From NCBI GenBank assembly GCA_015655585.1, contig JAATEV010000068.1:1-64000 (forward strand): a DNA stretch of 64,000 bases, read 5' to 3'. The DNA is from Terriglobales bacterium (lineage in GTDB: Bacteria; Acidobacteriota; Terriglobia; Terriglobales; Acidobacteriaceae). The stretch's first letter is position 1; each line of letters begins with the position of its first letter. The notes under the pieces are model-generated. The model did no database searches and was not told the DNA's origin. It saw only the letters and a program-made list of their open reading frames with translations. Made by a program: the position numbers and the translations under genes. This document shows, one piece after another, positions 8,856 through 20,266 of this stretch.

Positions 8856-8940
8856 GGCATACCCCAGGGGCTGAAGCCCCTTTTTCGACTGACGGGAGAG
8901 GCCCAAGGCTAAAGCCTTGGGGTACCCAGAAGCAAAGACA
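8856..8940. repeat. Dispersed intergenic repeat R1 (copy 1)
   Basis: ggcataccccaggggctgaagccccttttt...gaggcccaaggctaaagccttggggtacccagaagcaaa; near-identical copy at 62648-62731. Confidence 0.8.
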
Positions 8941-11058: not shown

Positions 11059-11760
11059 GTGAACGGCGAAAGACCGGAACTTTGTGGATGTAATTTTGGA
11101 GGAGGGTTTGTGGACGCAACGCTTGAGGAGTTGAAGGCGGGGATTCGCCGGTTTCGAACGCAGGTTTATCCGGACCATGAGGAGACGTATATCCGCGCGG
11201 CGAGCGAGCCGCAGACGCCCCATGCTCTGATTGTTACGTGTGCCGACTCGCGGATCGATATTGAGACGATTACGCAGTCCGTTCCGGGAGAGCTGTTTGT
11301 TACGCGGAATGTGGGAAACCTGGTTCCGGCGTATGGCGAGATGCTGGGAGGCGTGAGCGCGGTGATCGAGTATGCCGTGACGGCGCTGAAGGTGCGGCAT
11401 GTGGCGGTGTGCGGGCATACGGACTGCGGCGCGATGAAGGGTCTGCTGGACCCGGAGGGGCTGAGGAAGATGCCTACGGTGAATACGTGGCTGAGGAACG
11501 CTCATGCGGCGTTGAGCGTGGCGGACTCGCTGGCTGTGGAGGGCGAACCGGCGAGTGCAAGGATGCGGCGGCTGACGGAGGAGAATGTTCTGTTGCAGTT
11601 GCAGCATCTGCGAACGCATCCCTCAGTGGCGGGAGCGATAGCGAGAGAAGAGCTGACGATCTCGGGGTGGGTGTACGACATTGGCAAGGGCGAGGTGAGT
11701 ATCTCGGAGAACGGCGGGAGGTTGTTCGAGGCGGTAAAGGTAGAGGGCGAGGAGGCATGA
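11059..11760 (+). CDS. Beta-class carbonic anhydrase
   Basis: CADSRID...VAVCGHTDCGAMKGL zinc-binding motifs; the start may be the downstream GTG at 11110. Confidence 0.93.
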   Translation: MNGERPELCGCNFGGGFVDATLEELKAGIRRFRTQVYPDHEETYIRAASEPQTPHALIVTCADSRIDIETITQSVPGELFVTRNVGNLVPAYGEMLGGVSAVIEYAVTALKVRHVAVCGHTDCGAMKGLLDPEGLRKMPTVNTWLRNAHAALSVADSLAVEGEPASARMRRLTEENVLLQLQHLRTHPSVAGAIAREELTISGWVYDIGKGEVSISENGGRLFEAVKVEGEEA

Positions 11761-12665
11761 TCCTGCCGCGTGGGCCGCGACTGGTGCCGATGCTGCGGTA
11801 TGTGGGAAGGCCGCTGCTGGCGCTGTTTGCGTATGATCTCGCGGTGGGCGCGGCTTACAAGGTTCTGGGCTGGGAGTGGGTGGCGATGCCGCATATTCCG
11901 CTGTCCCTGTTCGGGTCGGCGATTGGCATTGTGGTGGCGTTCCGAAACCAGTCGTCGTATGCGCGGTGGTGGGAGGCGCGGACGCTTTGGGGCGGGATCA
12001 TCAATAATTCGCGGAGCATGGCCCGGCAGGTGACTACGGCCATGCGAACCGTGAAGGACGCCGCGGAGATGCGGGAGATGCAGCGGCGGATGGTGTATTT
12101 GTTGATTGCGTATGCGAAGGCTTTGCGGCAGCATCTGCGAGGGCTGGAGCCGTGGGAGGAGATGGAGCCGCTGATGGGGCGGGAGGAGATCGAGGCTCTG
12201 CGGGGGGAGCAGAATGTTCCGCTGGCGATTCTACTGAGGACGAGCGGGATGCTGAGGGAGTGCCAGGCGCGGGAGTGGATCGATATGGCGCAGTGGCAGG
12301 CGATGGATGGAAATCTGGACGGCCTGATCGATGCACAGGGCGGTGCAGAACGCATGAAGAACACGCCGATGCCGAAGCAGTACGATTATTATCCGCAGTT
12401 GTTCGTGTATATCTACTGTGCGATGCTGCCGCTGGGCCTGGTGGCGAATATGGGGTGGTTTACGCCGCTGGGATCGACGCTGGTGGGATTTATTTTTCTG
12501 GCGCTGGATAAGATCGGGCGCGATCTGGAAGACCCATTTGAGAATACGATTCACGATGTTCCGCTTACGGCGATTACTACGGGGATTGAGATAAATCTGC
12601 GGCAGATGCTGGGGGAGACGGAGATGCCGGAGGCGGTAGTTCCGGTGAAGGGTGTGCTTTGGTAG
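11757..12665 (+). CDS. Bestrophin-family membrane protein
   Basis: ATGA overlap with carbonic anhydrase; IVVAFRNQSSYARWWEARTLWGGIINNSRSMARQ and DLEDPFENTIHDVPLTAI are bestrophin hallmarks. Confidence 0.88.
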   Translation: MILPRGPRLVPMLRYVGRPLLALFAYDLAVGAAYKVLGWEWVAMPHIPLSLFGSAIGIVVAFRNQSSYARWWEARTLWGGIINNSRSMARQVTTAMRTVKDAAEMREMQRRMVYLLIAYAKALRQHLRGLEPWEEMEPLMGREEIEALRGEQNVPLAILLRTSGMLRECQAREWIDMAQWQAMDGNLDGLIDAQGGAERMKNTPMPKQYDYYPQLFVYIYCAMLPLGLVANMGWFTPLGSTLVGFIFLALDKIGRDLEDPFENTIHDVPLTAITTGIEINLRQMLGETEMPEAVVPVKGVLW

Positions 12666-14786: not shown

Positions 14787-15422
14787 ATGTATCCGCTGAA
14801 GTTGTTGATGTGGGCTGTGCTGGGATGGTCGGCGCTGGGAGTGATGGGGGTCTCGGTGTCGCTGGCGCGAGGCGAACGGAGGAAGGCTGTGCATGGTCTG
14901 GCATGGCTGGCGGGAGTGTGGGTGGTTTACCTGGGCGTGCTGGCCGGGGTTTCGCTGATGCAGCCGCAGCGGGTTCTGGCTGTGGGCGAAGAGCAGTGCT
15001 TCGATGCGATGTGCTTTACGGTGACGGGAGCGAAGACCGTTCCCGGGTTTCAGATGCAAGGCTTTCAGTTGCGGGATGGGAGCAGGCTGGTGGCGGTATC
15101 GGTTCGGGTAAGGAACCGGGGGCGCGATGGAGCTGCGAGCGATGAGCGCGTCAGCGCGTACCTGGTGGATGCACAGGGAAGGCGATGGAAGCAGTTGCAG
15201 GGCGTTGGCGGGGCGGGCCTGCGGGCACGAATGGCGGCCGGGGAGTCGATGATGAGCGAACCTGTATTTAAGACGGCGGAGGACGCTCGCGGGCTAGGCG
15301 TGGTGTTGACGCAAGGGCGGTGGCAGACCGGAACGCTGGTGATTGGAGACTCGGACAGTCTCCTACATCGGAAGACGGTGGTGAGGCTCAATGACGAAAT
15401 GATGAATGAGGTTGATAAGTAA
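14787..15422 (+). CDS. Membrane-anchored hypothetical protein (DUF4352-like fold suspected)
   Basis: Two N-terminal TM segments, then a beta-rich soluble domain ([34 protein letters not shown]). Confidence 0.5.
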
Positions 15423-15986
15423 TACTTATCGGTTCATTTGCCGCATGGCATACAGGACTCGGAGAGAGTCGCCCTTTCGGACTGAATAAACATTCATTTT
15501 CTGATGATGTCTGCTGAAGTGATGTTGTTTTCCCTCATCTCATGCAAAAAGGTGCATGGAGCACTGGGCGGGACTTGCAAACACCCCAGTAATTGCGGAG
15601 GTGGTCGTTGGTACGGCGATTGCTGAGATTACCGCGTCGGAGGTTGCGACCTCTGAATGGGCTCATAAAGCTACCCTGCTGTGCGCTGGATGACCAGTCA
15701 GGTAGTGATGATAGTAACTGAGCAAAAAGGGCTTCTCGAACGACTTGTATTGTGTCGCGATCGAGTGGTGGGCCGACCTATCTGTCGCATGTAGGAATTC
15801 GCATCCTGTCTAAAAATTGAAGCGCTTCACTGCAATGAAGCCCTCGCGCATGTGTATGCGTGCCTTGTCGCGCGCCAACGTGGTTGGCGAGCGGGAGACG
15901 CGCGTGAGTGTCCGGTATGCCGTTCCATGATGAACGGCGTAAACGGTCGTGCTGTGCCAACAAAAGTTGCATGGAATGGAGACATC

Positions 15987-17666
15987 ATGAACAAGATCGT
16001 ATGCACTCTCGTTACGGCCTCGGTTCTCGCAGGCGGTTCGGCCTTTGCCCAGAGTAACCATGGCAAGAAGCTCCTTGATAACCAGATGGGAAATGTTACG
16101 GCCGGACAGACCTCTTCCGTAGATGCGGGCGGGTCGATTGCAGCGAACAATTCCACGGTGAACACGAATGCCACAGGCTCGGTGAGCCTGAGCGGCAGCG
16201 CACTGGAAGGCGCGGCCGGCGTGAACATTGTGAGCTCGTCCGATGCCCTGGTCGCCAATGGCGTGAACGTGTATGACAGCAGTCTGACGACGGACGGCGG
16301 TTCCGGCAACGCGGGCACCGACGTGAACCAGGTCAACACGATCAACCAGTCGGCTGCCTCGACGGCCACTCTCGACAAGTATTCGCGTGGTGCGAACAGC
16401 CAGCTCTCGGTGAACTCGGCCTCCAATGTAACCAAGTCGGACAACTATTCTTCGAGCCTTAATGGATCGCTGAATACGAGCACGACGAACGACAAATCCT
16501 ACAGCAATGACAAGGCGAACAACTACAGCACCTCAAACACCAACACGAACTCGAAGAACGCCGCGGCACAGCAGAGCGCGAGCAAGAGCGCCTCGGCTTC
16601 GCTGACGACGGGCACGACGGTGTATGACCAGAAGTCGGCCTCCAGCTCGAACTCGGCTGCGCAGAATGCCTCTCTGGACACGAGCGCGGCGAAGTCTGCG
16701 AGCTCGACGAACAGCCTGGCCACGGCGGACAACAAGAGCAACAGCTCTAACTACAGCCAGAATGCTTCGAGCGGCACCACGAACGATGCTTCGCTGACCG
16801 GCAACGGGACGCTGAGCACTTCGGGGGCGACGCAGTCGAACTCGGCGAGCAACTACAGCAAGTCGGGCGCGGCGCAGGAGGGTTCGTCGGGCTACTGGCA
16901 GGGCCAGGGCGCGACGAAGAACAATGGCGTCTCGCAGAACGCGGCGGCGAACAAGTCCGCCTCGGGCGCGACGAGCAGCGGTTCGGCGGCGAATGCGTCG
17001 CTGGATGCCAGCCTCTCGGTGAATGCGAGCGACAACTACGCGACGGGCAAGAGCTCGGGCAAGGCTGCCAGCACCGCGAGCACTTCGGGCAAGAGCCTGA
17101 ATGCGAGCTCGGCTGACAACTATGGCTCGAACGCGAGCCTCTCCGCCAGCGAAGCGAGCCAGAAGGCTTCGGCGAATAACTACGATTCGTCGAAGGGCGG
17201 CTCCACCTCCCTTGCGGCCACGACTGACAAGGCTTCGCAGGAGGCCTCCGGCTGGAACACGGCGAGCAGCAACAGCTCAAGCTCGTCGAAGACCACGTCG
17301 AACACGAGCAACGTTGCTTCTTCGAGCGACTATGCGACGAGCACGGTTGCAAGCCTTTCAACGAGCAAGTCCGACCAGAGCTCCAGCACCTCGGTGCAGA
17401 GCCTTGCTGTAACGGACAACATCCAGGGCGCGGTGAAGATCGGCTCGGCGACGGCGACCAATATCGCTGTTGACGGTTCGACCGTGAACTCGACCACGAA
17501 CTACGCGGTCGCTCTGGCTGACTCGGCCGAGGCGAATGCGAAGGCCCTGAACATCGTCAACGCTGCCGGCGGGATGGTCTCGAACGGCCTGAACATCGCG
17601 CACAGCGCAAACATGAGCGCGATCCCGACCCTGAACCAGGTCAACAGCATTACGCAGGTTCGCTAG
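15987..17666 (+). CDS. Low-complexity Ser/Ala/Asn/Thr-rich secreted protein; candidate Fap-like amyloid fibre subunit
   Basis: Signal peptide MNKIVCTLVTASVLAGGSAFAQ, then LLDNQMGNVTAG; matching ~70-aa segments at N and C termini flank a ~350-aa low-complexity linker with recurring NY/DNY. Confidence 0.7.
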   Translation: MNKIVCTLVTASVLAGGSAFAQSNHGKKLLDNQMGNVTAGQTSSVDAGGSIAANNSTVNTNATGSVSLSGSALEGAAGVNIVSSSDALVANGVNVYDSSLTTDGGSGNAGTDVNQVNTINQSAASTATLDKYSRGANSQLSVNSASNVTKSDNYSSSLNGSLNTSTTNDKSYSNDKANNYSTSNTNTNSKNAAAQQSASKSASASLTTGTTVYDQKSASSSNSAAQNASLDTSAAKSASSTNSLATADNKSNSSNYSQNASSGTTNDASLTGNGTLSTSGATQSNSASNYSKSGAAQEGSSGYWQGQGATKNNGVSQNAAANKSASGATSSGSAANASLDASLSVNASDNYATGKSSGKAASTASTSGKSLNASSADNYGSNASLSASEASQKASANNYDSSKGGSTSLAATTDKASQEASGWNTASSNSSSSSKTTSNTSNVASSSDYATSTVASLSTSKSDQSSSTSVQSLAVTDNIQGAVKIGSATATNIAVDGSTVNSTTNYAVALADSAEANAKALNIVNAAGGMVSNGLNIAHSANMSAIPTLNQVNSITQVR

Positions 17667-17742
17667 AAGAAGACGCGGAACGGAGCCTGTCATGAACAGG
17701 CAGGCTCCGGGCTGTGCCTCTGAGCAGTTCCAAGGAGGATGT

Positions 17743-18150
17743 ATGAGTCGTCTTTTAGTGATTGCGAGTCTTGCCCTGCTTCCTTTGGCAGGCATGGCAC
17801 AGAATGCCGCTCCGCACAGGGCGCAACCGTTGAGCGACGCAGCCATGGACAAAGTGACTGCGGCGGGCGTTACAGCGGGCGTTTCGGACGGAGTGGTGAA
17901 GTTTGCGGGCTCGGCTGCAACCCCGAACGGGCTTGTAACCGGAGCAGGTACGCTTCAGGTGCTTACTGGACCGATCACAGGAAACAACACGAGCACGCTC
18001 TCGCTTAGCGGCGGAGCGCAGCAGAACCTGAGCTCGCTTGTAAACGTCAATGCCGTGAACTCCAACATCAATGTTCTGCTGAATCTGAACGTCAATATCA
18101 ACTCGACGGTCGGAACGCTGACGCAGACCAACCTGACGGGAAGGCACTAA
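17743..18150 (+). CDS. Small secreted repeat protein; candidate minor or nucleator subunit of Fap-like system
   Basis: RBS aaggagg; MSRLLVIASLALLPLAGMAQ signal peptide, LSDAAMDKVTAAG motif, Asn/Val-rich LVNVNAVNSNINVLLNLNVNINSTVGTLTQTN. Confidence 0.65.
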   Translation: MSRLLVIASLALLPLAGMAQNAAPHRAQPLSDAAMDKVTAAGVTAGVSDGVVKFAGSAATPNGLVTGAGTLQVLTGPITGNNTSTLSLSGGAQQNLSSLVNVNAVNSNINVLLNLNVNINSTVGTLTQTNLTGRH

Positions 18151-18152
18151 TC

Positions 18153-18836
18153 ATGAACTGCCTTCGGTCGGTGCTTGCCGCGACTTTGGTGGCTAGCACT
18201 GTTCTCTTCCCTGCCTTCGCACGCGCCCAGAATCCGAAAGGGCGGGCGGAGGCGGAGGGGAGCAAGCACATCAAGACGATGAAAGAGATCCGTTCCGAGG
18301 GGGTGACGCGGCAGCGCTGGGACATGAGCTGCGGCGCGGCGGCGTTGAGCACGCTGCTGACCTACGACTTCAAGGACAACACACCGGAGACGGCCATCGT
18401 GGTGTGGCTGCTGCACCGCCTCGATGGGCAGAAGGTGCGCGATCGGGGAGGGTTTTCGCTGCTGGACCTGAAGCACTTTGCCGAGGCGCGCGGATATACG
18501 GCGGAGGGCTTCAGCGGAATGACGATTCAGGACCTCGCGGTGGAGAAGACGTCGGTGATTACACCGATCCGGCTAAAAGGATTCGACCACTTTGTGGTGG
18601 TGAGGGCGCTGGTGAATGGCCGCGTCTTTCTTGCCGATCCTGGGTTCGGCAACCTGACGATGAAGATCGACAAGTTCGAAAAGCTGTGGAAGGACGGCAT
18701 CGTGTTTGTGGTGCATCCGCCGAGCGAACAGATGATTACGGGAAAGAATCTTTCGATTGCGTCGCGGCTGGTGCCGGATGAGACGGTGATCGAACGCGGA
18801 ATCGGAGCTACGGCTCCAGCGAATTGGCTTTATTGA
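18153..18836 (+). CDS. Secreted C39-family-like cysteine peptidase (FapD-like)
   Basis: RQRWDMSCGAAALSTLL (Q and catalytic Cys), GFDHFVVVRAL (His), FLADPGFGN (Asp); N-terminal signal peptide. Confidence 0.85.
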   Translation: MNCLRSVLAATLVASTVLFPAFARAQNPKGRAEAEGSKHIKTMKEIRSEGVTRQRWDMSCGAAALSTLLTYDFKDNTPETAIVVWLLHRLDGQKVRDRGGFSLLDLKHFAEARGYTAEGFSGMTIQDLAVEKTSVITPIRLKGFDHFVVVRALVNGRVFLADPGFGNLTMKIDKFEKLWKDGIVFVVHPPSEQMITGKNLSIASRLVPDETVIERGIGATAPANWLY

Positions 18837-18858
18837 TGGAAAGGCGGGTTTACCCTCG

Positions 18859-20124
18859 ATGTTGCGGCAACGATGGATTCAAGGACTGCTGGCGGCGATC
18901 CTCTGCGTAGCGCCAGCAGAAGCGCAGACGACTCAGGCACAGACGGCACCGGCGCAGACGATAGACCCGGTGGAGGCGAAGTTGCAGGAGGCCCTGCGGG
19001 AGCGGGACGCGATTATCCGCAACCTGCTGGAGCGGGTCTCCGAGCTGGAGTGGAGGGTGAACGGCGGGTTCACGAGCAGGCCGGACGACAGGCCGGTGCT
19101 GTCTCCGGCAGGCGTTCGGGCCGCGGTGACAGCGGTGAATCCCGCGGTGAACACTGTGGTGAACTCGACATACGACACGACCGAGCGGCAGGCGACGGAG
19201 GCCCTGGACCAGGCGCTGATTGTGCATGGCGGGCTGCTGCTGCCAAATGGGACGCTGGAGATCGACAATACGGCGTCCTACTTCAGCGCGGCGTCGGACC
19301 ACATCACGGTGAATGGGTTTGCGCTGCTGCCGGTGCTGGTGGTGGGCGATATCGCCTCGCAGAGGACGCGGCAGGACTATCTGCTGCCGACGCTGACGAC
19401 GCGGCTGGGACTGCCAAAGCGGTTCCAGATGGACTTCATGATTCCGTATGGGTATGAGCTGATCCGCTCGGTGGATGCGAATAATAATCAGACGACCTCA
19501 AGCAGCTTTGGCATGGGCGACGTCAGCGCGGGGGTCTCGAAGCAGTTGACCAGCGAGCATGGGCACTGGCCGGACATGCTCGGGAGCGTGCGATTTAAAT
19601 CGACCACAGGGAAGGACTCGTTCAACCTGAGCAGCAACGAGGTTGCACTGGGAACGGGCTTCAATGCAGTGCAGGGCAGCCTGACGGTGGCGAAGTCGAG
19701 CGATCCGGTGGTGTTCTTTGGCGGGGTCAACTATACGGCGAACCTTTCGGCGAGTCATATGGTCTCGGCCAACGATCCTACGAATCCCGACGCCAAGACG
19801 CTGGGACGTTTCAATCCGGGAGATGCGGTCGGGTTTCAACTGGGGTCGATTCTGGCACTGAATCCGGAGGTCTCGATGACGCTGGGATGGGACCAGAGGT
19901 TTACACGAGCCACTTTGCTGAATGGCACGCCGATTCCGTCGTCGTACCTGGTGGAGGGAACGCTGCGGCTGGGGACCAGCTATATGTATGCTCCGGGACG
20001 GATGGTGGACCTTACCTTTGGGGTGGGCCTGACGCCGGATACGCCCAGTTTGCAGTTTTCGGTGGGGTTCCCGCTGCGTCATACGCTGTGGGGGCCGAGG
20101 CCGCATAAGCTGCCTGTGCATTGA
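18859..20124 (+). CDS. Outer-membrane beta-barrel protein with N-terminal coiled coil (FapF-like candidate exporter)
   Basis: Signal peptide, heptad-like EAKLQEALRERDAIIRNLLERVSELEWRVNG, then alternating amphipathic strands ending in VGFPLRHTLWGPRPHKLPVH. Confidence 0.7.
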   Translation: MLRQRWIQGLLAAILCVAPAEAQTTQAQTAPAQTIDPVEAKLQEALRERDAIIRNLLERVSELEWRVNGGFTSRPDDRPVLSPAGVRAAVTAVNPAVNTVVNSTYDTTERQATEALDQALIVHGGLLLPNGTLEIDNTASYFSAASDHITVNGFALLPVLVVGDIASQRTRQDYLLPTLTTRLGLPKRFQMDFMIPYGYELIRSVDANNNQTTSSSFGMGDVSAGVSKQLTSEHGHWPDMLGSVRFKSTTGKDSFNLSSNEVALGTGFNAVQGSLTVAKSSDPVVFFGGVNYTANLSASHMVSANDPTNPDAKTLGRFNPGDAVGFQLGSILALNPEVSMTLGWDQRFTRATLLNGTPIPSSYLVEGTLRLGTSYMYAPGRMVDLTFGVGLTPDTPSLQFSVGFPLRHTLWGPRPHKLPVH

Positions 20125-20187: not shown

Positions 20188-20266
20188 CATTCCCTCAGCG
20201 ACTAAAGTCGCGTTGAATATGTGACGTTTACGGCGGGGCTGAAGCCCCGCCCTTTCAAAACAGTAT
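20188..20266. repeat. Dispersed intergenic repeat R5 (copy 1)
   Basis: cattccctcagcgactaaagtcgcg...ggcggggctgaagccccgccctttcaaaacag; copy at 22709-22784. Confidence 0.75.

Follow-up and report, generated by a model that had tools for sequence, protein, structure and literature searches.

A conserved four-gene cassette of soil acidobacteria that probably encodes a Fap/Fil-type fibre secretion system

The window analysed here is the whole 64,000-nucleotide stretch at positions 1–64,000 of contig JAATEV010000068.1 (Terriglobales bacterium, assembly GCA_015655585.1), part of a 3.1-Mb genome (75% complete) whose closest named relatives are Edaphobacter lichenicola strains, the Edaphobacter metagenome-assembled genome (MAG) RYN_7, and Granulicella sp. 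L60. At 15987–20124 it carries four tightly spaced same-strand genes, A to D, which are best explained as an acidobacterial branch of Fap/Fil-type fibre secretion that lacks FapA and FapE (probability roughly 0.7). An initial annotation had proposed a Fap-type amyloid system in an apparent acidobacterium. The nearest named genomes agree with that host, and all open reading frames (ORFs) were confirmed at their coordinates and strand; homology of C and D and co-conservation of the genes uphold the core of the proposal, and none of the three results named in advance as refuting it (an unrelated porin, a peptidase without a C39 fold, genes not co-conserved in relatives) was obtained. Strict Fap membership is not supported.

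15987–17666, + strand: gene A (ORF), 559 amino acids (aa), secreted, candidate major fibre subunit
17743–18150, + strand: gene B (ORF), 135 aa, secreted, candidate minor subunit
18153–18836, + strand: gene C, 227 aa, secreted C39 cysteine peptidase of FapD/FilB type
18859–20124, + strand: gene D, 421 aa, FapF-type outer-membrane barrel

The A–B, B–C, and C–D gaps of 76, 2, and 22 bp suggest a single A-B-C-D transcript, and ribosome sites 5′ of A (GGAGAC) and of B (GGAGG) support the starts of these two genes. The signal peptides of all four products were assigned by eye.

The homology of D to FapF, which had been proposed from its architecture, is now evident in alignments. D matches the NCBIfam FapF model over profile positions 6–417 of 420 (E 3e-27, 95 bits), a model without a match in 14 control genomes, and the sequences of FapF crystal structures 5o65, 5o67, and 5o68 (E ~2e-20 to 2e-19); among PDB sequences, nothing beyond FapF falls below E 0.4 and no other outer-membrane protein is listed. 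The NCBIfam FilC model gives a lower score than FapF (55 bits; cut-off 630). The N-terminal coiled coil that had been noted in D is likewise predicted here: residues 35–72 are heptad-like (73% Leu/Ile/Val/Met/Ala at a/d positions in the best register), and the core of this stretch, RERDAIIRNLLERV, is invariant in nine orthologues. When D was compared with FapF for the trimeric coiled coil and plug helix of the latter, this heptad pattern and conserved block were what it showed, beside a model of pLDDT 31.

18967–19062, + strand: predicted N-terminal coiled coil of D, aa 37–68; heptad pattern, invariant block, helix in a low-confidence model

C passes the Pfam Peptidase_C39 threshold (E 5e-16, 59 bits; cut-off 22), in agreement with the C39-like peptidase with Cys/His/Asp motifs initially seen there, and is related to NCBIfam FilB (E 3e-35, 122 bits; cut-off 475) and FapD (E 1.1e-26, 93.5 bits; cut-off 330). 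Its putative catalytic residues are invariant through relatives from Aeromonas (FapD), Cupriavidus, Croceicoccus, and Photobacterium. Its sequence places C among C39 peptidases of the periplasmic type, with FilB and FapD as its closest relatives.

18330–18332 (Cys60), 18588–18590 (His146), and 18636–18638 (Asp162), + strand: catalytic residues of C, invariant

Conservation of the cassette was assessed in 60 genomes of the genus, taking C39 matches of E 1e-90 or better as genuine orthologues. Such orthologues occur in 25 of these genomes, at 26 loci (two further genomes gave weak, unrelated matches), and every one of the 26 has B on one side, D on the other, and A adjoining B, so that the order is A-B-C39-barrel throughout; in genome G049, the A gene is visible on a longer stretch. 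Because this order is kept across species in which the B, C, and D proteins share roughly 53–76% identity (B itself, 53–76%), the arrangement is not a chance one, and the co-conservation on which the initial proposal depended is present. In a 297-genome sample of the phylum, barrel orthologues were found in ten genomes of the window's genus (counting its own genome and two relics), in one genome of another genus of the same family, and in two distant genomes of family 28 (f28). One relic (G061) has a broken barrel gene and no C39 gene at the same site, and in the other (L026, at ~11603–12214 of the reverse complement of G036:C1) a deletion that removed A, B, and C has placed the 3′ portion of the barrel gene directly behind the putative sigma-54 promoter described below. 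Decay at the same site in two species points to vertical inheritance with loss. In a barrel tree without deep-order resolution, the f1 acidobacterial barrels share a single long branch with full support; it lies apart both from the FapF proteins of Pseudomonas and Aeromonas and from a mixed group of other proteobacterial barrels and one f28 protein.

The candidate subunits A and B share a repeat. Mature A consists of 74% Ser/Thr/Ala/Gly/Asn/Gln and has no Cys, and two repeats, R1 and R2, flank a low-complexity linker that makes up two thirds of the protein.

16134–16352, + strand: repeat R1 of A, aa 50–122, homologous to R2
16353–17453, + strand: linker of A, aa 123–489, low-complexity Ser/Ala/Asn/Thr, 77% Ser/Thr/Ala/Gly/Asn/Gln
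17454–17663, + strand: repeat R2 of A, aa 490–559, homologous to R1
17992–18147, + strand: C-terminal repeat of B, similar to R2 of A

R1 and R2 align with each other at hhalign E 3e-17 (z 26 over column-permuted controls), and the single repeat of B, a protein with few charges, aligns with R2 at E 6e-5 (z 8 over permuted columns); in the window's own genome, no copy of R2 other than R1 was found. A orthologues vary from 207 to 565 aa, almost wholly through the length of the R1–R2 linker, and in the 207-aa orthologue (L031) the linker is nearly gone and both repeats persist. Within these proteins, it is R1, R2, and the B repeat that are conserved; they are also more hydrophobic and bear Asn.

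Two further features, missed by the initial annotation, came to light in the follow-up. The first is a double-glycine-like leader on both A and B, defined strictly by hydrophobic residues at −12, −7, and −4 and Gly/Ala at −2 and −1. It takes the form Leu−12, Met/Leu−7, Val/Ile−4, TA[G/A], and directly follows the signal peptide; the segment separating the two differs between orthologues in both length and sequence.

16071–16106, + strand: leader LLDNQMGNVTAG of A, aa 29–40, strict motif in 12 of 12 orthologues
17830–17865, + strand: leader LSDAAMDKVTAA of B, aa 30–41, strict motif in 10 of 12 orthologues

The two B orthologues outside the strict pattern end in VTAS. The pattern occurs in 0.2–1% of shuffles (0.2% for A), in 3.3% of 921 background ORFs, and in none of 24 C and D orthologues. 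Since A and B bear the leader and C and D lack it, A and B are the predicted substrates of the C39 protease C. In proteobacterial and f28 loci that pair C39 with a FapF-type barrel, similar sites lie in the short protein and in the protein at the FapE position, often with a full double glycine (KLDDVRGG, LTDDEMSSLRGG, ISNEELDSQRGG, ITDYELATMRGG), and Aeromonas FapE carries LADGELAHLRGR. Individual loci (L037, L039, L043, L044, L027) show a clear double-glycine leader either on the FapE-position protein (e.g., LTDDEMSSLRGG, ITDYELATMRGG) or on the short subunit. In Pseudomonas, FapD C38A stops FapC secretion, the target of FapD was left open in a 2017 study, and FapE seems to be the only protein that loses its N terminus (PMC5557850). 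We infer that the periplasmic C39 enzymes of such loci cut these leaders, and that in the acidobacteria it is the fibre proteins that serve as substrates. A bolder and tentative proposal, to which we give slightly less than an even chance, is that the cassette represents a separate, deep FapF/C39 amyloid-secretion lineage whose subunits carry the protease leader, and in which export would be licensed by processing of these subunits in the periplasm rather than by that of an accessory FapE.

The second feature is a promoter-like architecture upstream of A.

15543–15556, strand not assigned: TGCA-N6-TGCA element, probable enhancer-binding site (upstream activating sequence, UAS), in 11 of 12 orthologous upstream regions
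15609–15624, + strand: sigma-54 −24/−12 promoter-like site TGGTACGGCGATTGCT, 11 of 12 consensus positions

The sigma-54-like site reads TGGTACG-N4-TTGCT and lies 363 bp 5′ of A, implying a long untranslated leader. In 11 of the 12 orthologues, a −24/−12-like site follows TGCA-N6-TGCA by 50–52 bp and precedes A by ~320–430 bp in otherwise diverged DNA, an architecture seen in 3 of 36000 shuffles; the orthologue without the pair is L031, from a MAG. These eleven sites match 9 to 12 of the 12 consensus positions and the weaker ones are not significant alone, so that the evidence for the putative sigma-54 promoter is the fixed pairing of UAS and −24/−12 rather than single sites. The genome has rpoN and seven strong enhancer-binding proteins. 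A second genomic match to the pair (G000:C9:4360) has a poor −24/−12 element, precedes a 273-aa secreted protein without A- or B-like features, and was treated as chance; scans for sigma-70 promoters and terminators gave chance-level results. In P. fluorescens, fapA–E is driven by an RpoN −24/−12 promoter with BrfA, a cyclic di-GMP-responsive enhancer-binding protein (PMC9207406, PMC13101488), and in Aeromonas a −24/−12-like site lies 66 bp before the fapB ORF, with an activator bearing a VpsR domain near fap. A similar VpsR-domain sigma-54 activator lies beside the f28 acidobacterial barrel and C39 gene of L027 (G196:C31, 3436–4758, minus strand). A search of the intact-cassette genomes for a linked BrfA-like (VpsR-domain) activator gave nothing beyond one weak match, and the link was rejected. 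The sigma-54/UAS promoter suggests that control of expression through an enhancer is common to such systems.

Several observations weigh against placing the cassette among Fap/Fil-type systems. The NCBIfam FapB, FapC, and FapE models, which recognise the Aeromonas proteins, do not match A or B at E 1. Compared with a canonical set of six FapC and two FapB repeats (Pseudomonas UK4, Aeromonas), R1 and R2 reach hhalign z values of 2.0 and 0.9, not above the null. No gene for FapE was found between C and D, where the gap is only 22 bp; for FapA, which is also missing in six of 16 Fap genera (PMC3792158), there is no candidate ORF beside the cassette and no match among A–D. The 95 bits of D against FapF stand beside an equivalog cut-off of 700, and the FilB and FapD scores of C are also well below theirs. 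AlphaFold models of D and of the 207-aa A orthologue L031 (predicted local distance difference test, pLDDT, 31 and 34) are uninformative, probably owing to shallow alignments, and lend no fold support. Strict Fap membership is unsupported because A and B are unmatched by the FapB/C/E models, their repeats score at the null, and fapA and fapE are absent; likewise, since their scores lie far under the equivalog cut-offs, C and D are homologues of FapD and FapF and not the canonical proteins. Long and short proteins of C39/FapF loci from Cupriavidus, Photobacterium, Croceicoccus, and Polymorphobacter may offer stepping stones between A/B and canonical Fap: R1 scores z 7.2 against the long proteins, and the short ones score z 5.9 against canonical Fap and z 4.9 against B. 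This series is suggestive only, as the repeat sets were cut by hand.

On the reading of the cassette as a Fap/Fil-type fibre secretion system, an enhancer-binding protein at TGCA-N6-TGCA would start RNA polymerase with sigma-54, which would transcribe A-B-C-D, and Sec would carry the four products across the inner membrane. On its far side, in the periplasm, C would cut A and B after the leader (...VTA[G/A]), keeping both export-ready or marking them as substrates, and D, a barrel with a predicted periplasmic coiled coil, would pass them unfolded to the surface. There, B may nucleate or cap, and A would polymerise by stacking of R1/R2 with a disordered polar loop between them, probably as an amyloid-like matrix fibre.

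The strongest competing explanation, which we consider unlikely, keeps the same export machine but has A and B form a surface layer, an adhesin, or a soluble polar matrix protein that is not amyloid, with the linker and not cross-beta repeats as the functional part. The small polar composition of A, the size of its linker, the lack of significant similarity between its repeats and those of canonical Fap, and the uninformative L031 model all fit this explanation; the near loss of the linker in L031 with retention of R1 and R2, the conserved, more hydrophobic, Asn-bearing character of the repeats, and the export of amyloid by the closest FapD+FapF machine yet characterised (PMC5557850) argue against it. 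Recent acquisition of a canonical Fap operon from proteobacteria, followed by loss of fapA and fapE, would account for the FapF and FapD homology and the sigma-54 control held in common, yet it is very improbable given the long acidobacterial barrel branch apart from Pseudomonas/Aeromonas FapF, the shared genomic site with decayed relics in several species, and the failure of the FapB/C models on A and B. That the genes are unrelated neighbours, a COG4313-like uptake porin beside a C39 peptidase maturing a bacteriocin-like peptide, is hardly credible: FapF does belong to a wider barrel family and the leaders of A and B are of bacteriocin type, but this idea is already weakened by the strict four-gene co-conservation, D scores 95 bits with FapF and 15.9 (below cut-off) with the generic uptake-porin family PF13557, A and B are large, secreted, and each equipped with a signal peptide, and the C39 domain is not fused to an ATP-binding cassette (ABC) transporter.

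Pseudomonas uses the Fap machine to build amyloid biofilm fibres, and every complete Fap system reported comes from Proteobacteria (PMC3792158, PMC6173800). Because a 2018 review mentions adjacent fapD/fapF homologues in five further phyla (not named in its text), the occurrence of this pair beyond Proteobacteria is, in principle, no novelty. In the open-access literature, no paper was found on Edaphobacter together with amyloid, none that appears relevant by title and abstract on FapC and Acidobacteria, and none treating Fil together with Fap; as far as this literature shows, the operon, its subunits, the leader, and the promoter appear to be undescribed. The cassette is a defined, conserved operon of soil acidobacteria with subunits of its own. 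The leader on A and B and its double-glycine versions in related loci make the question of the FapD substrate directly testable; the tag may show what the protease cuts.

Around the cassette, the product of an upstream gene at 14787–15422 is anchored in the membrane and weakly similar to DUF4352 (below cut-off); this gene is oriented divergently to one for an ABC-transporter ATPase and is kept at the site in several species. The perfect palindromes GCGACTAAAGTCGC and GGGGCTGAAGCCCC at 20198–20248 recur at 8867, 22719, 22755, and 62659, far above chance frequency in the window, and are a dispersed repetitive extragenic palindromic (REP)-like element with one copy pair directly 3′ of the cassette.

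Compared with Fap of Pseudomonas and Aeromonas (fapABCDEF), the cassette has in common a FapF-type barrel with a predicted N-terminal coiled coil, a periplasmic C39 enzyme (FapD), two secreted and mutually related repeat subunits with variable linkers, and an RpoN −24/−12 promoter; the variable linker between conserved R1 and R2 parallels the ~30–260-residue linkers of FapC repeats (PMC12392863). It differs in having two repeats in A instead of three, the leader on A and B themselves, the large subunit first and the small one second, and no locus-linked activator of VpsR/BrfA type. Fil of Acinetobacter (filABC...) is similar in that C is somewhat closer to FilB than to FapD and in the FilA leader (MDDAALSAATGQ), and is dissimilar in that FilA, judged by eye, is unlike both A and B and in that FapF outscores FilC as a model for D. 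In the window, compared with L042, there are no neighbours like FilA, FilD, FilE, or FilF, and an acpS-like gene follows the cassette. The C39/FapF loci of Cupriavidus, Croceicoccus, Polymorphobacter, Photobacterium, and an f28 acidobacterium differ in that several have a FapE-position protein with a double-glycine leader and in that their barrels fall in a separate group; they resemble the cassette in combining a low-complexity secreted protein, a short secreted protein, a C39 enzyme, and a barrel, in their double-glycine-type leaders, and in repeats related to that of B and to R1.

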